Under the pieces are notes generated by a model. The model searched no databases. It saw only the letters and a program-made list of their open reading frames with translations, and was not told the DNA's origin. This document shows, one piece after another, positions 18,929 through 32,876 of a DNA stretch of 33,123 nucleotides (its first letter is position 1; every line of letters begins with the position of its first letter). The position numbers were made by a program, and so were the translations under genes. The DNA comes from Candidatus Gastranaerophilales bacterium (lineage in GTDB: Bacteria; Cyanobacteriota; Vampirovibrionia; Gastranaerophilales; Gastranaerophilaceae): contig CALUPH010000018.1 of assembly GCA_944322615.1 (NCBI GenBank), positions 1 to 33,123 of the forward strand, written 5' to 3'.

Positions 18929-19924
18929 TTAGTTTTCTTCAATGAATTTTTTATGTTTTTCGTTCCATTGGTATGATATTTGGTAATTTATATTGTTTTG
19001 AATTGCCAATTTTTTCATAAGTATAGCAAGTTGAATAATTTCTTCATTTATTTTGCCAAAAGGACTTTTTGGATTATTAGCACTATTTGATTCACAATCA
19101 ATAACTATATTTTTTACTTTTGCATTTATACATTTTTGTATAAATAATTTGACGTCATTTTCATTTGCATTCCAAGAAAAGAAAATATATTTAACAAAAA
19201 GCATATCAGGAAATTGTGCATATTTTTCTATATTTTCCCATACTTTGTTAAAGTTATTTTGTCGTTTAATTTTTTTATATGTTTCTTCTGTTCCGGCATC
19301 AGGACTTATTTGAATACTCATTAATCCGTCTTTTAGTCCTTCTAGGATAGTATTTGAAAATTCAATGCCGGAGGAATTTATTGCTTGTCTTAATTTATTT
19401 TTATGCAAAAAATTTGCAATTTCTTCAAACTCGGAACAGATAGTTGGTTCACCGCCACCCCAGTTAAATAGGCAAGAATCATTAATTATTTTATTTTTTA
19501 CCATCTGTTTTATTATTGGTAGAAGATTGTATTTTATGTCTTCCGTCTTTCTTCTAATTCCGCAGTATATGCAATTAGAATTACATTTTGTAAAATGATT
19601 GATGGTAAAAAATGTTATATTTTTTTCTTTTGGAAAATTGGGAACTATTTGTTTTTCAAAGAACTTGCAGCCTTTACAAACTGCATTTTCTTTCTGATTT
19701 TGCTGCATAATATTATCTATATTTTTTATGTATTCATTAAATTTGAAATTTTTTATTAATGTTTTATATAGTAATGGTGGGAAATAAGGCATTTTAGTTG
19801 AATGGCAGCAAATATGAATAGAAAATGGCCAAAATAAAATATCATTATATATTCTATTACAGAACATTAGTTCTTTGCCTGCATATTTTTTATTTAATCT
19901 GTCAATTAAAATTTTTCTGAACAT
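18929..19924 (-). CDS. Radical SAM protein with N-terminal auxiliary-cluster-like module
   Basis: A 331-residue radical SAM enzyme. The canonical CX3CX2C is C114/C118/C121 (TKCNSNCIYC), with NWGGGEPT (154-161) for SAM binding and a TIM-barrel tail. In front of it, residues 22-86 carry C22...C39-C40...C83xxC86 around FWPFSIHICCHS, a pattern like the SPASM/twitch cluster domain but at the N terminus; no C-terminal SPASM is present. Substrate unknown: peptide or protein modification and polysaccharide modification are both possible. The protein at 31899-32876 is a paralogue with matching cysteine spacing. It is divergent from the TPR gene across a regulatory region with two dyads. The ribosome site is weak. 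Confidence 0.88.
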   Translation of the reverse strand: MFRKILIDRLNKKYAGKELMFCNRIYNDILFWPFSIHICCHSTKMPYFPPLLYKTLIKNFKFNEYIKNIDNIMQQNQKENAVCKGCKFFEKQIVPNFPKEKNITFFTINHFTKCNSNCIYCGIRRKTEDIKYNLLPIIKQMVKNKIINDSCLFNWGGGEPTICSEFEEIANFLHKNKLRQAINSSGIEFSNTILEGLKDGLMSIQISPDAGTEETYKKIKRQNNFNKVWENIEKYAQFPDMLFVKYIFFSWNANENDVKLFIQKCINAKVKNIVIDCESNSANNPKSPFGKINEEIIQLAILMKKLAIQNNINYQISYQWNEKHKKFIEEN

Positions 19925-21565: not shown

Positions 21566-22909
21566 ATGAAAATTGTAATATACGGTGCAAATGAGACATC
21601 TTGTTTAATTGCAGCTAAGTTATATGAGGATCACGATATCATTGTTATTGATGATGGGACTGATAGTAATAATGAAATTCAAAAATTAGATATTGAATAT
21701 GTTCAAGGTTCCGGTTCAAATATAGCAATATTAGAGTCTATCGGTATAAAAGATGCTGATATATTTATTGCGTGCAGTGATAATGATGAAGCAAATATAG
21801 TTGCCTGTTTAACCGTAACAAATATGACAAAGCTAAAGACTGTTTGTTTTGTAAGTAAGAAAGAAAATGTAGAGTCTTTATCTTTGGTTAGAGGTTCAAA
21901 GTATCAACGTGAACTTATGATAGATTATATCTTGTGGCCTGAAGAATTGATGACACAGGAAATTTTCAGAATTATAACGGTTCCAAATGCTATAGATGTT
22001 GAAAATTTTGCTAATGGTAAAGCAAGACTTCTTGAATATAGAGTTGTTGAAGGTACAAAGTTCATAAATAAAAAGATTAAAGATTGTAGCTTTCCTGAAG
22101 ATACTTTGATTGTCGGTATTACAAGAGACAATACATTATTTATTCCTAATGGTGATATGGAATTACTTTTAAATGATAAAGTTATATTTATGGGTTCTTC
22201 TTATTCTTTGGATATACTTGCCAACAAATTCTTCCAAGATAAAAATGATGTGAAACAAGTTACAATAATAGGCGGTGGTAACGTTGGTTTAATGCTTGCT
22301 CAAAACCTTGAAAAAGTAAATATGAAGATTAAAATCATCGAATTTAATTATGATCGTTGTGTTGAACTGACAGAAAATTTGAAGAATACACTGGTTATAA
22401 ATGGCGATGGCGCAAATTATGGGCTTTTAGAGGAAGAAAGAGTCGGAGAATCAGATGTTGTTGTCAGTGTTACTAACAATGATGAAAAAAATCTGCTTTG
22501 TTCTTTACTTGCAAAACAAATGGGAGTTCCTAAAGTTATTACAAGAGTTTCAAAAAATGCCAATGCAAATATATTTGAAAAAGTTGGTATTGATGTTGCA
22601 ATTTCTCAAGATGCCGCTGCAATTGACGATATAGAAAATCATTTAATTAAAACAGAAGTTGAAATTCTTGCTACTGTAGAAAGAGGACAAGGAAAAGTTC
22701 TGGAAATATCTATTCCTTTTGATTTTAAAACAGATATGATTATGAATTTAAAATTGCCTTGTAAAGCAATAATTGCAATTATTCAAAGAAGAAATAGAAT
22801 TATTATTCCGCGCGGTACTACTCAAATAATGCCGTTTGATAATTTAATTGTATTTACAACCCAAAATAATTCCGATTCAATATTAAATTATTTTAAAAGG
22901 TGCATTTAA
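21566..22909 (+). CDS. trkA: Trk potassium uptake regulatory subunit
   Basis: A 447-residue cytoplasmic TrkA: two RCK_N (Rossmann) plus RCK_C units that bind NAD(H) or other nucleotides and gate the TrkH channel. The second Rossmann motif is intact (TIIGGGNVGLMLA, near 230), but the first reads VIYGANETSCLIA, without the usual GxGxxG, so the first half probably binds nucleotide weakly. AAAAAGGG precedes the ATG. trkH starts 3 bases after the stop: a coupled pair. Confidence 0.92.
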   Translation: MKIVIYGANETSCLIAAKLYEDHDIIVIDDGTDSNNEIQKLDIEYVQGSGSNIAILESIGIKDADIFIACSDNDEANIVACLTVTNMTKLKTVCFVSKKENVESLSLVRGSKYQRELMIDYILWPEELMTQEIFRIITVPNAIDVENFANGKARLLEYRVVEGTKFINKKIKDCSFPEDTLIVGITRDNTLFIPNGDMELLLNDKVIFMGSSYSLDILANKFFQDKNDVKQVTIIGGGNVGLMLAQNLEKVNMKIKIIEFNYDRCVELTENLKNTLVINGDGANYGLLEEERVGESDVVVSVTNNDEKNLLCSLLAKQMGVPKVITRVSKNANANIFEKVGIDVAISQDAAAIDDIENHLIKTEVEILATVERGQGKVLEISIPFDFKTDMIMNLKLPCKAIIAIIQRRNRIIIPRGTTQIMPFDNLIVFTTQNNSDSILNYFKRCI

Positions 22910-22912
22910 TAT

Positions 22913-24406
22913 ATGAATTATAGATACATATTTAATACATTAAGTCTGATTTTAAAATATATTGCTGTAGTAATGCTTATTCCTTGTATATGTGCTTTCA
23001 TATACAAAGAGACAAATGCATATCAGCCATTTGTATATTCTTCTATAATAGCTTATTTACTTAGTTTGATAATGAAGGGCAAAGAAAAAAGTGGAGAAGA
23101 ATTTAATAATATAAATAAAAGTGAAACGCTTGTATTGGTTTTGTTGGTGTGGATATCCTTTGCATTGTTATCTGCAACTACATTTTTACATTTTGGACTT
23201 AGTCCGATAGATGCTTTGTTTGAAGGTGTATCTGGTGTTACAGCCACGGGTGCTACAATTTTAACTGATTTTTCGGTATATCCAAAAACAATGTTCTTTT
23301 GGAGATCCTTTAGCCAATGGCTTGGTGGTATGGGAATATTGGTATTATTCATTGCTGTTTTGCCACAGTTCGCAATCGCAGGTCGACAGATGTTTTCTGC
23401 CGAATTTCCCGGTGCAAGTTCTACAGATACAAAATTAACACCAAGAATAAGGCAAACAGCTGCAGCATTGTGGTTGATATATTTTATTCTTACCATATTA
23501 GAAATATGTGCTTTAAAATACTGCGGTATGCCTATTTTTGATGCGATATGTAATTCTTGTTCCACGCTATCAGGTGGTGGTCTTTCTCCTGCGCAAAACA
23601 GCATAATGGACTATGCGCAACCTAAAATATTTTGGGTAATTGCATTTTTTATGTTTTTGTCAGGAATGAACTTTGCACTCCAGTATAAAGTATATGTAAA
23701 ACGTAATTTTCTTGCACTTATCAAGGATGATGAATTTAAGCTTTATTTGGGTGTTGTAATCTTCTTTACTTTATCTATTGCCGTAACCTTAACTACTCAT
23801 GGTATATATGAACTTAAAGAAGCTTTTGAAGCAGCATTCTTTCAGGTTGTATCTATAATAACAACAACGGGTTTTGCTTCTGTAGATTATAATGAATGGA
23901 ATTTAAGGGCTAAATTGTTGTTATTTTTATTAGTGTTCTCAGGTGCATCAATTGGTTCTGCTTCAGGTGGTTTAAAATTACTTAGAGTTATTTTTATATT
24001 TAAATATTTAAAAAGACAAATATCAAAAATCTATCATCCCAATGGAGTTTATCCGATAAAAATAAACAGGACAATTATAAACGAAGATGTTGTAAGACAA
24101 ATGATTTCGTTTGCAATTTTTTATTATACGATTTTTGTGATAAGTGCGGTGCTTTTAGTATTTATAGAACAAGATACAATCATTGGTTTAACTAGTGCTA
24201 TTGCAAGTTTGGGAAATGTGGGACCTGCATTTGGAAAACTTGGACCAATGGGTAGCTTTGCAGGTTTGACAATAATATCCAAGCTAATATGTATTTCGAA
24301 TATGATGATAGGTAGATTAGAACTGATTCCGTTTTTGGCATTATTTCATCCTGATTTTTGGATATTTAAGAAAAGAAACAACTTGCATAAAAATAAAAAC
24401 ATATGA
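22913..24406 (+). CDS. trkH: Trk potassium uptake channel subunit
   Basis: A 497-residue K+ translocating membrane protein with four M1-P-M2 units. The four filter segments are visible: SGVTATGATIL, CSTLSGGGLSP, SIITTTGFASVD and ASLGNVGPAFG, each with the filter Gly. The intramembrane loop in the third repeat is Gly/Ser-rich (GASIGSASGGLKLL), as in TrkH gating loops. It is coupled to trkA. Three unknown genes follow within 40 bases, suggesting one long transcript. Confidence 0.93.
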   Translation: MNYRYIFNTLSLILKYIAVVMLIPCICAFIYKETNAYQPFVYSSIIAYLLSLIMKGKEKSGEEFNNINKSETLVLVLLVWISFALLSATTFLHFGLSPIDALFEGVSGVTATGATILTDFSVYPKTMFFWRSFSQWLGGMGILVLFIAVLPQFAIAGRQMFSAEFPGASSTDTKLTPRIRQTAAALWLIYFILTILEICALKYCGMPIFDAICNSCSTLSGGGLSPAQNSIMDYAQPKIFWVIAFFMFLSGMNFALQYKVYVKRNFLALIKDDEFKLYLGVVIFFTLSIAVTLTTHGIYELKEAFEAAFFQVVSIITTTGFASVDYNEWNLRAKLLLFLLVFSGASIGSASGGLKLLRVIFIFKYLKRQISKIYHPNGVYPIKINRTIINEDVVRQMISFAIFYYTIFVISAVLLVFIEQDTIIGLTSAIASLGNVGPAFGKLGPMGSFAGLTIISKLICISNMMIGRLELIPFLALFHPDFWIFKKRNNLHKNKNI

Positions 24407-24443
24407 TACAATTTTGGTGTAATGTAGTAGTTTTGAGAGTAGT

Positions 24444-25112
24444 ATGTTTAGAAGAACTTGTATATTAAGCTTATTGCTTTTAATTTCAGTTTATGCGCTG
24501 AAATTGATAATAGTAGGATTTCAGAATATGGATCTTGGTGAATTTAAGCCGGTTTCCGCAATATTTTTATTGGATATTTCGGCATCCAACAGAAATATGC
24601 TTGCTCAACAAGAACAGACAATATTGAAGATATCAAAGAGGTTGGATTCTGAAGATCATGCATTGATATATGTTGTTACAGAAGACACATATAGTGTATA
24701 TAACGGCAATCCTCATAAGTTAGTTGCCATGAGAGAGTCAATGAAAAAACAAGGTAAGTTTGATGAGAAGTCTTTTGGTACTGCCTATGGATTGGCTCTT
24801 AAAAAAGCGATAGGAGATGCTCTAAGATATAAACAAGATGGTTATAAACCTGCGATAATAGTCCTTGGTGATTTGGAAAATGAAGGTGATATAACAAAAC
24901 AAATTAACTGGAGTACATTGCCTGTTAATATACATAAAACATTAAAATACATTCCTGATTTAACTTTAGCGTTCTTATATGCTCATCCGCAGAAGTTGGA
25001 TGATGTAAGACAGACATTATTACCTGTAATAAAAGAAAAGAACCTGATTGTTGCCTCTGAGGAAAATGTGGATCAGGCAGTAAGAAAAATATTGGAAGCA
25101 GTAGGAAGATAG
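24444..25112 (+). CDS. Membrane-anchored VWA-like protein
   Basis: A 222-residue protein with an N-terminal anchor (about 6-26) and a von Willebrand A-like domain. The MIDAS metal site looks complete: DISAS (D44, S46, S48), T113 in FGTAYGLAL and D143 in VLGDLENEGD. VWA domains bind protein ligands through the metal. Orientation is probably outside the membrane. It lies 37 bases after trkH and 9 bases before the FHA-like gene, so it belongs to the same operon. The ribosome site is weak (GAGAGTAGT). Function unknown. Confidence 0.75.
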   Translation: MFRRTCILSLLLLISVYALKLIIVGFQNMDLGEFKPVSAIFLLDISASNRNMLAQQEQTILKISKRLDSEDHALIYVVTEDTYSVYNGNPHKLVAMRESMKKQGKFDEKSFGTAYGLALKKAIGDALRYKQDGYKPAIIVLGDLENEGDITKQINWSTLPVNIHKTLKYIPDLTLAFLYAHPQKLDDVRQTLLPVIKEKNLIVASEENVDQAVRKILEAVGR

Positions 25113-25121
25113 AGGATTAGA

Positions 25122-26792
25122 ATGAAAGTTACTATAACATCAAAAAATAATGAAAAAGTATTTAATGATTCCAATGTAATAAATATAGGTACGGCACCAA
25201 ATTGTCATTTTAAGCTTGATTTGGATTTTGATTTAATAATATCTCTTCAAAAACTAGAGAACGGAAGATGGCAAGTAGTTAATAATTTTAGAAGTAATAA
25301 GGTTTTGTTTAGAGGTCAGCCAATTGGACCTTCTATAGAAATCGGTTCTTTATGTAAATTAATGATTGCTGATACTGATGAGTATATTAGCATTAAAATT
25401 ACTGCTGCAGGTACTAATCCCAAAGTTGTTCCGGGTTCTTTAGAACTTGCCAACAGGAGAAATGCAGAAAGAATTAAAAGAGCCGAAAATAAAAAAACTA
25501 TTACTATGATTGAGGATGAAGAACTCAACGAACAAGACATTGAAACCCTTTATGGTAAAGGAATTGGTGCTCAGACTAAAATTAAAATTGATAGAAGAAA
25601 AGCTGATATAGAAAGAAGAAGAGCTCTTGTAACGAAAGAAATAGCTTATAAGGCAAATTATTTAAGAGGAAAGTTAGCTCAAAATGAATTAATTTTGGCT
25701 TTTCTCAACTTCTTTATTATTTTTGTTCCATTTGCAATGGCATTTATTTTAAAGGATATAATACGTTTAGATTCATTAAACGGTCAATTGCAAAATAGAA
25801 TTTTGTTTTTAGCTGCAATAGCCTTTATTGTTGTTTCTTTAATCTTAAAATTAGGTCAATTTTTGACATTGCAAAATAAAGGAAAAGCAAAAGTAACCCA
25901 ATCTTCTAAAGCAATCCAAAGTTTATGCTTGTTATCGGGTAGTGGTATCTTTGCAGCTGTTATGCTGTTTAGTTTGGTTGAATTATCTCTTCATACATAT
26001 TCTCTACCACTTCTAATTCCACAAATGCTTATAGGTTGTTCATTCTTGTGTATATTCTTATCTGTATTTGCAGCAATAACACAAAATACTATAGCTGAAA
26101 CCGGAGAAGAACTTGATGGCTATGAAAGTAGAGAAGATTTTCAAGCTGTAGTTAAAGATTATCAACAATGGATTACATTATTTGTAAATAATATTTCAAG
26201 AAAAAAATTAAAGGATATTAGCAATAAAATATTTAACTTAGAAATAAAAGCAGGGGTAGAATATGTGATTGGTGTTATTACTGCTCCATTTTTGGCATAT
26301 GGTGTTTCTCAAACATTGGCTGAATGTTTCCCTGAAGCCGCAGGATGGATAAGACTTGCTGAAGGTTTTAAATTTTCACCAATATTCTTGACTCTTGCTG
26401 TATTTATGATCGTATTTGCTTTCCATTGTTTTGCAACTTCATTTGCAACAACAAAAAGAGTTTTAGCTTCAAATGTAATAAAACAAGATGGATTTAGTGA
26501 TTACAATGTTCATGGTGTTGTATTGCACGGTGTAGAAAGTAGTAAAAACCTAAAAAAAGAAGCAAAAAAATTCTTTTTAATTGCTCTTGCCGTTGTATTT
26601 ATTGAAATTACTATGAACGTTTCATATTTCATTGGTGTTATGGGCGGTGATGTAATGGGTATGGTATTGAGCTTTGTAGCGGCTTTATTACCTACCGCAA
26701 TTCTTATTATGGAAACAACAATGCTTGGTAATACTAAGTTTGAAATAATAATAAGAGAAGAATTATTAGAAAAAGTAGATAAAGATTATTAA
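25122..26792 (+). CDS. FHA-like domain plus eight-pass membrane protein
   Basis: A 556-residue protein. Residues 1-95 resemble a forkhead-associated fold (VINIGTAPNCHF, then NKVLFRGQPIG and EIGSLCKLMIAD), but the phosphothreonine-binding Arg/Ser/His and NGT are not all conserved, so phosphopeptide binding is doubtful. A basic cytosolic linker follows (105-180), then about eight membrane segments (190-212, 226-246, 266-288, 295-319, 380-400, 419-441, 483-505, 509-533). No transporter motif was recognised. The gene has a short gap on each side (9 and 19 bases) to the VWA and zinc-ribbon/TonB genes. Confidence 0.7.
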   Translation: MKVTITSKNNEKVFNDSNVINIGTAPNCHFKLDLDFDLIISLQKLENGRWQVVNNFRSNKVLFRGQPIGPSIEIGSLCKLMIADTDEYISIKITAAGTNPKVVPGSLELANRRNAERIKRAENKKTITMIEDEELNEQDIETLYGKGIGAQTKIKIDRRKADIERRRALVTKEIAYKANYLRGKLAQNELILAFLNFFIIFVPFAMAFILKDIIRLDSLNGQLQNRILFLAAIAFIVVSLILKLGQFLTLQNKGKAKVTQSSKAIQSLCLLSGSGIFAAVMLFSLVELSLHTYSLPLLIPQMLIGCSFLCIFLSVFAAITQNTIAETGEELDGYESREDFQAVVKDYQQWITLFVNNISRKKLKDISNKIFNLEIKAGVEYVIGVITAPFLAYGVSQTLAECFPEAAGWIRLAEGFKFSPIFLTLAVFMIVFAFHCFATSFATTKRVLASNVIKQDGFSDYNVHGVVLHGVESSKNLKKEAKKFFLIALAVVFIEITMNVSYFIGVMGGDVMGMVLSFVAALLPTAILIMETTMLGNTKFEIIIREELLEKVDKDY

Positions 26793-26811
26793 TTAAAAGG
26801 AAATGATTATA

Positions 26812-27549
26812 ATGTATAGATGTACAGAGTGTTATGCAGAATATACAGAGTGTCCTGAATATTGTGATTGTGGGAATGATACTTTCGAAGAAATTATAGA
26901 AGAAGAGTATTATGAATCTGAACCAGAAACACAAGTTCAGACACAAAAACAAAAAAGAAAATTAACTCCTGAAGAATTAGAAGAACTTAAAGCAGAAGAA
27001 ATTGAAAAGAAAAAGTCTTTAATTGTTGCAGGTATTGTTTTATTCCTTTGTATTCTAATAATTTTCGTTTTCCCGCCACATAAGAAAAAGAAAATGGAAA
27101 AAGTTAAGCAAAAGGTTGCTATGGAACAAGTGAAGATACCTAGTGTTGATACTTTTTGGGATAATACTGTTCAATCTGCATATAGAAAAGCTAAAGATCC
27201 TTTGGCTAATCTTCCGTTATTAAATTTAAGATTTAGATATATTTCTCCAACATTAAGAGAGTATTTGGTTGAAATTGGCGGTGAATTCGATAGAAAATGG
27301 GATAAAAGTATTGTTCAAGGATATGGTGAAGCAAAAGTTGAATTTACCATTGATAAAGAAGGTACTGTTGTTTCAAAAAGAATTGTTGCTACAACACATA
27401 ATGAAAGTCTTGATAATTCTGTTTTAGTTGCATTATCCAAGATTATTAATTTTAATGTTCCGCCGGATGATTATAAAGGTGAAAGAATATATATTTCGTT
27501 TAAAGTTGGTAAGAATGGCGACTCACACGTAATATATCCTAATAAATAA
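26812..27549 (+). CDS. Zinc-ribbon, membrane segment and TonB-C-like protein
   Basis: A 245-residue protein with an unusual order. Residues 1-24 are a small zinc ribbon (C4, C7, C14, C18, C20; YRCTECYAEY, CDCGNDTF), then an acidic linker, a membrane segment at 69-88, and a C-terminal domain of TonB/TolA-C type (about 160-240: GYGEAKVEFTIDKEGTVVSK, SLDNSVLVALSKI, FNVPPDDYKGERIYISFKV). A cytosolic N and periplasmic C orientation is expected. The ATG at 26812 is preferred over 26803, because AAAAGGA is only 2 bases from the latter. It ends with an 11-base overlap with convergent aroA. Not a classical TonB: no Pro-rich spacer, no ExbBD nearby. Confidence 0.75.
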   Translation: MYRCTECYAEYTECPEYCDCGNDTFEEIIEEEYYESEPETQVQTQKQKRKLTPEELEELKAEEIEKKKSLIVAGIVLFLCILIIFVFPPHKKKKMEKVKQKVAMEQVKIPSVDTFWDNTVQSAYRKAKDPLANLPLLNLRFRYISPTLREYLVEIGGEFDRKWDKSIVQGYGEAKVEFTIDKEGTVVSKRIVATTHNESLDNSVLVALSKIINFNVPPDDYKGERIYISFKVGKNGDSHVIYPNK

Positions 27550-28816
27550 TCAGACCATTCATTAGATTTAAAAATTCAGGAAATGAAATATCAACCCATT
27601 GAAATTCGTTAATTTTAATGGGTTTTTTACATATTAATCCTGCAACATATGCACTCATTGCAATTCTATGATCGTGATAACATTCAATTTCACAGTCACC
27701 AAATAGTTCTTTTTTACCATTTATAATTAAACCATCCGGAGTTTCTTCAATATCTGCTCCAAGCTTTTTTAATTCAGTTTTTACGGCTGTAATTCTGTCT
27801 GCTTCTTTATTTCTTAAATCTTGCGCATCTTTTATTATAGTAGTACCTTGCGCTTGAGTTGCTGCTACTGCAATTATTGGAATTTCATCTATCAACCTTG
27901 GAATTATAGCACCTTGTATTGTTGTGCCTTTTAATTCGGAATATTTTACTCTAATATCTGCGATTTCTTCGTTTGATATAATTCTTTTATCTAAAATTTC
28001 AATATTTGCATTCATTGATTTTAGAATATCAAGAATTCCGCTTCTTGTTTCATTAATACCGACATTTCTTATTATTATGTCTGAATTTGGAGTTATTAAT
28101 GCCGCAACAATAAAAAAAGCAGCTGATGATATATCTCCGCAGATATTAATATCAACAGGTTTTAATTGTGATTTTGAAACGGTAACTTTATTACCTGATG
28201 TTTCTATTGTTGCTCCCATATATTCAAACATTAATTCTGTATGATTTCTTGATTTATATGGTTCTGTGAAGGATGTTTTACCTTCTGCATTAAGACCAGC
28301 CAGTAATAGGCAAGATTTTACTTGTGCTGAAGCTAATGGAGAATTATAATCAATTCCGTTTAGTTTTGTTCCATTAATTTCTATCGGCAATTTATAATCA
28401 TTGTGGAAGAATTTTGCGCCCATAAGTTCTAATGGGGCAATAACTCTTTTCATTGGTCTTTTTGAAAGGCTTTGATCACCAAACAGCTTGCAGTTAAAGT
28501 TTTGACCGGCTAATATCCCCATCATAAGTCTTGTTGTTGTTCCTGAATTACCGCAATCAAGAGGGATTTGAGGTTTCTTTATAGCATCTTTTGCATTGAT
28601 GATTAGTTCTTTTTCGTTAAGATATTCTATACTGCAACCAAGATCTTGAATTATTTTTAATGTTGACATACAGTCAGCACCTTTAGAAAAGTTAGAAACT
28701 TTAACTTTTCCTTTTGTAAGTGCTGCAAACATAAACGCTCTATGGGTAATTGACTTATCGGCAGGAATTTCAATGCTGCCGTTTAGTCCTTTTGATTTAT
28801 TGACTATGATATCCAT
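27539..28816 (-). CDS. aroA: 3-phosphoshikimate 1-carboxyvinyltransferase (EPSP synthase)
   Basis: A 425-residue EPSP synthase: joins shikimate-3-phosphate and PEP, the sixth shikimate step toward chorismate. Motifs: PADKSITHRAFMFAALTKG, DCGNSGTTTRLMMG, GDQSLSKRPM, IDEIPIIAVAAT, RNKEADRI and CYHDHRIAMS are all intact. Start: ATG 28816 gives the normal N terminus; a TTG at 28831 is an alternative, and neither has a good ribosome site. TATACT lies about 20 bases upstream of the ATG, or the gene may be read from the small membrane-protein gene upstream. It converges on the zinc-ribbon/TonB gene. Confidence 0.95.
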   Translation of the reverse strand: MDIIVNKSKGLNGSIEIPADKSITHRAFMFAALTKGKVKVSNFSKGADCMSTLKIIQDLGCSIEYLNEKELIINAKDAIKKPQIPLDCGNSGTTTRLMMGILAGQNFNCKLFGDQSLSKRPMKRVIAPLELMGAKFFHNDYKLPIEINGTKLNGIDYNSPLASAQVKSCLLLAGLNAEGKTSFTEPYKSRNHTELMFEYMGATIETSGNKVTVSKSQLKPVDINICGDISSAAFFIVAALITPNSDIIIRNVGINETRSGILDILKSMNANIEILDKRIISNEEIADIRVKYSELKGTTIQGAIIPRLIDEIPIIAVAATQAQGTTIIKDAQDLRNKEADRITAVKTELKKLGADIEETPDGLIINGKKELFGDCEIECYHDHRIAMSAYVAGLICKKPIKINEFQWVDISFPEFLNLMNGLIIY

Positions 28817-31898: not shown

Positions 31899-32876
31899 AT
31901 GCAATATAAAAGCTGTCAGTGGGTAAATAGAGGAATAGAGTTTAGGACAAATGAACTGCGTTTGTGTTGTTACGGTTATTTGCAGGGTCGAGAAACAGAA
32001 TATCAGACAACAATAAAAGAGAATTACCACGGCGAAATTTTTGATTGGAATGAAATCTTTGCAATAAAAGAAAAGTTGAAAGAACAGCATAAGCAAGGGA
32101 TATATCTTGATGCTTGTAAAGATTGCATATATCTTCATGAAAAAGATTGGGATGAGGAAAATTATATAAATCATTTTACATTTAATCATTGGACTAAATG
32201 TAATTGTAATTGTACATATTGCTATACAATGGACGACAAAAAGAAGTTTAATTCATATAAGGAATATCATCTTTATCCGATTGTAAAGGATATGTTTAAA
32301 AAGGGCATTATCAAAAAGACGGAAGAGTCCTGCATAATATTTGGAGGTGGTGAACCTACAATATTAAAGGAATTTGATAAATTGATTGATTTATTTTTAG
32401 AAAAAGGCTGTAAAAATATACGTATAAATTCTTCAGGAATAAAATTTTCTAAAAGTATAGCAAAAGGTTTAAAACTAGGTGCAATAAGTTTAGTAATTTC
32501 AACGGATTCAGGCTGCAAAGAGACGTATGAAAAAATAAAACAGGTAAAAGCGTATAAAAAAGTTTGGGAGAATATCCGAAAATATGCAAAAGCACAAGGT
32601 GAAAATAATTTATTAAAAGTCAAATATATTTTATACCCTGGTGTTAATGATAACTATGAAGAGATAAATAAGTGGTTTTATGAAGTCATAAAAAATGGCG
32701 TAAAAGCAGTTAGTTTAAGTGTTGAACAAGATTGGTATAATACTCATCAACCTGATTTTACTCCTGAGATATATGAACAAATAGCATATATGGAAAAGCG
32801 TTCAAAGGAGCTTGGGCTTGAACTTGAGATATATTGTGAAGCCTTAGCTGTATTAAGAGAACATAAAACAGATTAA
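31899..32876 (+). CDS. Radical SAM protein, paralogue of the 18929-19924 protein
   Basis: A 325-residue radical SAM enzyme. The CX3CX2C motif is C101/C105/C108 (TKCNCNCTYC), then FGGGEPT (148-154). The N-terminal module has C6...C23-C24...C73xxC76, matching C22...C39-C40...C83xxC86 of the other protein: the first-to-CC spacing is 17 in both. Shared stretches include NH(F/W)TKCN, INSSGI and SKS/SNT-GLK. No C-terminal SPASM. AAGGG precedes the ATG. It lies just past the prs terminator and before a DNA methyltransferase gene. Substrate unknown; no precursor peptide is obvious nearby. Confidence 0.88.
   Translation: MQYKSCQWVNRGIEFRTNELRLCCYGYLQGRETEYQTTIKENYHGEIFDWNEIFAIKEKLKEQHKQGIYLDACKDCIYLHEKDWDEENYINHFTFNHWTKCNCNCTYCYTMDDKKKFNSYKEYHLYPIVKDMFKKGIIKKTEESCIIFGGGEPTILKEFDKLIDLFLEKGCKNIRINSSGIKFSKSIAKGLKLGAISLVISTDSGCKETYEKIKQVKAYKKVWENIRKYAKAQGENNLLKVKYILYPGVNDNYEEINKWFYEVIKNGVKAVSLSVEQDWYNTHQPDFTPEIYEQIAYMEKRSKELGLELEIYCEALAVLREHKTD

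Follow-up and report, generated by a model that had tools for sequence, protein, structure and literature searches.

A trimmed copy of a family-wide envelope gene module, with an apparently undescribed core membrane protein, lies beside trkAH in Gastranaerophilales

Introduction

In the Glt machine of Myxococcus xanthus, the protein GltJ carries a zinc ribbon. The C-terminus of GltJ/AgmX, a membrane protein, is TonB-like (PMC8262864). GltG carries an FHA domain on the cytoplasmic side and also a TonB C-domain (PMC3169522), and CglB is a VWA adhesin according to a title cited in PMC12204202. The gene trio described here encodes a VWA protein, a protein with an FHA fold and eight predicted membrane helices (FHA-8TM) and a protein with a zinc-ribbon-like N-terminus and a TonB C-domain (ZnTonB), and thus has FHA, TonB C-domain and VWA parts in common with the Glt machine. 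However, the FHA fold of the trio is fused to eight helices and not to TonB, FHA and TonB lie on separate genes, no AglRQS-type motor is found nearby and the VWA protein is membrane-anchored; no homology is seen beyond the common domains. Inner-membrane vWA force transducers have also been proposed (PMC12204202). The likeness here is a membrane-tethered VWA domain, predicted to be periplasmic, that is encoded with other inner-membrane proteins, whereas the trio VWA protein lacks the proline-rich linker ahead of the VWA domain, the SHLS motif and the proton-binding (transpore) Asp, no tolQ-like neighbour is present in the five-gene unit and the partner is an unrelated eight-helix FHA protein.

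Other known proteins share single features with the trio. As in the Ton system (TonB-ExbB-ExbD), the TonB C-domain of ZnTonB follows one membrane helix, and Pro/Lys-rich spacers occur in the full version of the module; ZnTonB differs by its cysteine-rich N-terminus, by a short spacer in the trk-linked copy and by having no exbB or exbD neighbour, its neighbours being trkAH, the trio and aroA. Rv1747 of Mycobacterium tuberculosis is an ABC exporter. Its FHA-1 domain, also part of a membrane protein, is the best structural match of the FHA-8TM N-terminus, but FHA-8TM has neither an ATPase nor phosphothreonine-binding residues. The Bat aerotolerance proteins (BatB 3ibs, 4jdu) contain bacterial membrane-protein VWA domains and are among the PDB matches of the VWA model; the similarity is generic to VWA domains, and the genes that usually accompany bat were not recognised next to the VWA gene. 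Motor genes, helix motifs or domain fusion thus separate the trio from the Glt machine and the vWA transducers: it resembles trans-envelope complexes, while FHA-8TM, judged from its sequence, is an apparently undescribed core protein of an envelope gene set.

Gastranaerophilales inhabit the guts of animals, and most knowledge of them comes from metagenomes. They are related to cyanobacteria but do not photosynthesise, and they carry genes for an envelope of the Gram-negative type (PMC4040986). No account of this gene set was found in the literature on Gastranaerophilales with TonB or VWA.

Results

The five-gene unit

We analysed a stretch of 33,123 nucleotides (the window) on contig 18 of a 1.96 Mb genome of a Candidatus Gastranaerophilales bacterium; near-identical loci (97%) are present in Candidatus Gastranaerophilales metagenome-assembled genomes. 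An earlier note on this DNA had placed trkA, trkH and the trio on one strand with gaps of 3-37 bases, and the open reading frames agree, with successive gaps of 3, 37, 9 and 10 bases (Table 1). No terminator-like site was found between the five genes, and the sole one outside them is a hairpin directly 3' of the ZnTonB gene. Terminator-like sites number 3 against 2.6 expected, so that the argument rests on the position of the hairpin and not on the count. The gene that follows, aroA, runs convergently. Genus members whose contig is of sufficient length all retain the order TrkA-TrkH-VWA-FHA8TM-ZnTonB, apart from three that have no trio, and the arrangement is therefore far beyond chance. The region is flanked by a pair of radical SAM genes, alike in length and layout, at 18929-19924 (-) and 31899-32876 (+) of the window, and further relatives lie near the locus in other genomes.

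Table 1. Features of the trk-linked unit, in window coordinates
Feature	Position	Strand	Evidence
trkA	21566..22909	+	NF007039, TrkA_N and TrkA_C matches
trkH	22913..24406	+	PF02386 match
VWA protein	24444..25112	+	AlphaFold model, PDB matches, conservation
FHA-8TM protein	25122..26792	+	AlphaFold model, VIA Z, conservation
ZnTonB	26803..27549 (true start probably 26812)	+	PF13103 match, invariant cysteines, TonB chains in PDB
Terminator-like hairpin	27593..27624	+	14-pair stem then T run; within 3' end of convergent aroA

TrkA, the NAD-binding regulatory ring of the Trk potassium transporter, scores above the equivalog cut-off among the Trk transporter family models (NF007039, 398 bits against 293) and also matches TrkA_N and TrkA_C. 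TrkH, the potassium channel subunit, matches PF02386 with an E-value of 8.5e-58 (196.5 bits against a cut-off of 27) and falls below the cut-off of two other models (NF008020, 312 bits; TIGR00933, 288 bits against 331). One related locus (L065, genome G022) has trkA broken in two (open reading frames of 229 and 203 residues), with trkH and the trio intact downstream.

Architecture of the three proteins

By sequence, the VWA protein gives a weak match only (VWA_2, E 0.037). Its AlphaFold model is confident (pLDDT 88.8) and consists of one N-terminal helix followed by a VWA (Rossmann-like) fold that matches VWA domains in the PDB with Foldseek E-values down to 6e-08 and VIA Z up to 18.3. The MIDAS motif DxSxS...T...D is complete, D44 and S46 being found in 49/49 sequences, S48 in 47/49, and T113 and D143 in 46/49 each. 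Two trk-linked VWA proteins (L050, 9572-10237; L051, 3097-3762) lack some of the MIDAS residues (DISNP, QGAAYG). Position 20, within the N-terminal membrane helix, is basic (K/R) in 49/49 sequences; in the window this helix, CILSLLLLISVYALKLIIV, has K20 and contains neither His nor Asp.

A search by sequence for FHA domains gave no Pfam match in the host genome. In the AlphaFold model of FHA-8TM, residues 1-95 form an FHA beta-sandwich (Z 13.0 to 6ccd over 93 residues, 2.2 A, VIA), and the best structure matches of this N-terminal domain are FHA domains. A motif search of the expected stretches found the phosphothreonine-binding GR and SxxH in 0/162 FHA copies, some genomes being counted twice, and no Hanks-type kinase was detected in the host genome; the FHA fold is thus probably a protein-binding module. 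It is followed in the model, whose overall pTM is only 0.44, by a linker and eight long helices. Simple hydropathy showed seven clear membrane passes and missed the fifth; the modelled helices are predicted to fit eight. Six residues of the helical part are invariant in 55 sequences (T387, P389, E495, N499, P524 and T525), and two of them, E495 and N499, lie in helix 7. No convincing Pfam family was obtained among the 55 members, and there was no NCBIfam match or PDB sequence match. Searching PDB structures with the transmembrane part, which was modelled only within the whole protein, gave no convincing match, and this part may be of known fold. Two proposals for its origin had no support from sequence comparison: a relationship to ExbB, as 0/55 members matched PF01618 (MotA/ExbB/TolQ) and the sequence-level hhalign probability was under 3%, and an internal 4+4 duplication of the helices, for which that probability was 4%.

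ZnTonB consists of a four-cysteine zinc-ribbon-like N-terminus, one membrane helix, a short spacer and a TonB C-domain. The motif CxxC-x10-CxC is present in every copy examined, with all four cysteines invariant. The C-domain matches TonB_2 (PF13103; E 6.4e-11, 42.7 bits against a curated cut-off of 22) as well as TonB chains in the PDB, and all 21 ZnTonB members match TonB_2 at E-values up to 0.1. There is also a weak match to the AgmX/PglI C-terminal model (E 0.0056). No SHLS motif is found in the helix, SLIVAGIVLFLCILIIFVF. The gene probably starts at Met 26812, where its relatives begin. From its type, the TonB C-domain would be expected outside, and the charges flanking the helix leave the topology unsettled.

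The earlier note had read from the letters alone a complete MIDAS site, a degenerate FHA domain with eight membrane passes, and a protein with a zinc ribbon and a TonB-C-like domain. The first reading is borne out by residues each present in 46 or more of the 49 sequences, the second by the Z score, the absent phosphothreonine residues and the eight modelled helices; the third is confirmed by the cysteine motif, the single helix and the TonB C-domain.

Distribution of the gene set

The distribution was determined in 286 Gastranaerophilales genomes (order sample) and 292 genomes of the phylum (phylum sample). In the order, FHA-8TM matches 193/286 genomes and the VWA protein 182/286, and all 182 VWA genomes also have FHA-8TM. 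The VWA protein occurs in 182/183 genomes whose FHA-8TM match contains the transmembrane part and in 0/103 of the rest, showing that the two genes are inherited together. Eleven FHA-8TM genomes have no VWA protein: ten of them, from genus g22, match the FHA part only, and one gives a weaker match. Two g22 loci (L234:6387-6686 and L235:6539-6838) encode a stand-alone 99-residue protein that corresponds to the FHA part. Several genomes of genus g23 have weakly matching FHA-8TM copies only, and the copy at L237:6190 (G070) is very divergent (branch 2.07).

All matches listed for the phylum sample fall within the family of the window. A complete module is present in one genome of another family of the order (L056:3410-8573; G050, family f6), and in the tree this module groups inside the window's family; this genome is 66% complete, and the module may be due to horizontal transfer or contamination.

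The parent module

The core of the set occurs in about 30 genera, mostly without linkage to trk. The full module has the order sec350-VWA-FHA8TM-TonB-like-ZnTonB, lies in many differing gene contexts, often beside a convergent gene for a secreted VWA protein, and is held as a second copy by some members of the window's genus. The sec350 protein looks secreted and has a glycine-rich stretch with weak glycine-zipper matches. The TonB-like protein combines a helix and a Pro/Lys-rich spacer with a C-terminal domain that has no Pfam match. For the full module, a trans-envelope assembly is likely in view of its long TonB arms, of sec350 and of the secreted VWA protein. A sec350 relative also lies beside the TonB-ExbB-ExbD-ExbD operon of the host genome (L233:499-4770, contig 12); this genome also encodes one TonB-dependent receptor plug domain, on contig 3. 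About ten non-trk copies have no membrane VWA gene beside FHA-8TM; where their flank is readable, a secreted VWA gene is present. Together with the loss of MIDAS residues in L050 and L051, this indicates that the VWA protein is not needed in every copy.

These neighbourhoods, compared between genomes with and without linked trk, show that about 30 genera keep the genes together, as conservation of the trio would have it. The three genes named earlier do belong to the set, but three is too low a count, since elsewhere it includes sec350 and the TonB-like gene and often has a secreted VWA gene alongside.

History of the trk link

Linkage to trkAH is limited to the window's genus plus one genome of another genus (G225). 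The 29 trk-linked FHA-8TM proteins together make up a single clade, which has support of 100 and a long stem branch (1.38). Mapping the trio onto the TrkH tree requires two changes, the simplest pair being a single gain and a single loss. The loss clade consists of three genus members (G032, G237 and G008) that retain trkAH; in the latter two, trkH and aroA overlap by 11 bases and no trace of the trio is left between them. The trees disagree for L050 and L051, in which FHA-8TM branches basally and TrkH nests inside the genus. Neither sec350 nor the TonB-like gene is present in the trk-linked copy, whose ZnTonB spacer has a median of 58 residues against 135 in the full module (some genomes counted twice). 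The trk-linked trio is thus a trimmed copy of the family-wide envelope module, recruited once, and its reduced content supports an envelope complex whose potassium link is real but derived.

We also compared evolutionary distances after removal of the aroA signal. The residual correlation was 0.60 for VWA-FHA8TM, 0.68 for TrkA-TrkH, 0.60 for TrkA-VWA, 0.31-0.47 for TrkH with the trio (0.47 with VWA) and only 0.17 for FHA8TM-ZnTonB. Such mirror-tree values are weak evidence because linked genes share their history, and we rejected them as proof of Trk coupling.

Discussion

The earlier proposal of an uncharacterised envelope complex is well supported by genes that travel together with and without trk and by a core protein that matches no described family by sequence. 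Its tie to ion or turgor control stands in part. The genes are truly linked to trk, and two genera retain this linkage, but it has a single origin, most modules are not adjacent to trk, trkH is found in 271/286 genomes of the order, and three close relatives as well as most of the order have trkAH but no trio.

The trk-linked trio is most likely an inner-membrane accessory complex co-expressed with TrkAH. The best overall explanation, which we hold at about even confidence, is that a pared-down module copy recruited once would form an FHA-8TM-based inner-membrane complex alongside TrkAH. That the VWA protein, FHA-8TM and ZnTonB physically form a complex is reasonably probable from their linkage and co-occurrence, with the reservation that gene order and co-occurrence indicate linkage, not contact; a direct functional tie of the trio to TrkAH seems rather unlikely.

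In such a complex, built on FHA-8TM, the VWA protein could be held by an intramembrane charge pair between basic residue 20 and E495 of helix 7. The pair is suggested by the position of both residues about 15 residues from the cytoplasmic side; it has no covariation support because both barely vary. In the periplasm, the VWA MIDAS would bind a metal and an acidic ligand and the TonB C-domain would dock on a partner, while in the cytoplasm the FHA fold and the zinc ribbon would bind cytosolic partners by protein contact and not by reading phosphothreonine. The TonB arms of the full module, long and rich in Pro and Lys, would extend towards the outer membrane; that of the trk copy is probably too short to reach it. 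With the outward-reaching parts gone, the trk copy is most simply read as acting together with TrkAH close to the inner membrane. The accessory complex, made with TrkAH, might sense the envelope or an ion and adjust potassium uptake, or itself be adjusted by that uptake.

The loss of sec350, of the TonB-like gene and of the long spacer, the long stem branch, and the persistence of the trio beside trkAH across two genera despite divergence all speak against a trio that retains the envelope function of its parent, such as outer-membrane tethering or surface display or contact, and shares no more than a transcript with trkAH. We consider this reading doubtful, although it would agree with the presence of the module without trk across many genera, with the secreted VWA and sec350 neighbours that indicate an envelope or surface role in the full module, and with the near universality of trkAH. 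Quite unlikely is an ion-responsive regulator acting directly on TrkH/TrkA, in which the FHA fold or the zinc ribbon would contact the TrkA ring and the MIDAS would report periplasmic divalent cations: the operon-like arrangement in two genera and the residual TrkA-VWA and TrkH-VWA correlations point that way, but the correlations are inflated by linkage, close relatives and other genomes keep trkAH without the trio, and two trk-linked copies lack MIDAS residues. A bolder proposal, to which we give a low probability, is that FHA-8TM founded a new class of inner-membrane hubs, ion-driven or tension-sensing, that would work trans-envelope TonB arms and a MIDAS VWA protein and would have been rewired in one lineage to control TrkAH uptake by envelope state.

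A force transducer that runs on protons in the manner of Tol, Ton or Myxococcus Glt, with FHA-8TM as motor or coupled to ExbBD and with VWA/TonB-C as moving output, is very unlikely. FHA-8TM shows no sequence similarity to ExbB, the VWA and ZnTonB helices have neither SHLS nor an acidic residue (the VWA helix has Lys instead), and no motor gene was recognised within the five-gene unit, ExbB lying in its own TonB operon. These points outweigh the TonB C-domains of the module, the recall of GltG, GltJ and CglB by its FHA, zinc-ribbon/TonB and VWA parts, the inner-membrane VWA transducers already proposed (PMC12204202), the invariant E495 and N499 within one FHA-8TM helix and the presence of ExbB in all 43 relatives searched. 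Anti-phage defence, phage origin and plasmid carriage were rejected, as there was no meaningful PADLOC match, no PHROGs match with one distant viral_contigs match (L272), and no plasmid match, respectively.

The core membrane protein of this family-wide envelope gene set lies outside Pfam, NCBIfam and PDB sequences. The family also offers a natural experiment, in that the module and trkAH occur together as well as each without the other. These combinations make a link between envelope state and potassium uptake directly testable.
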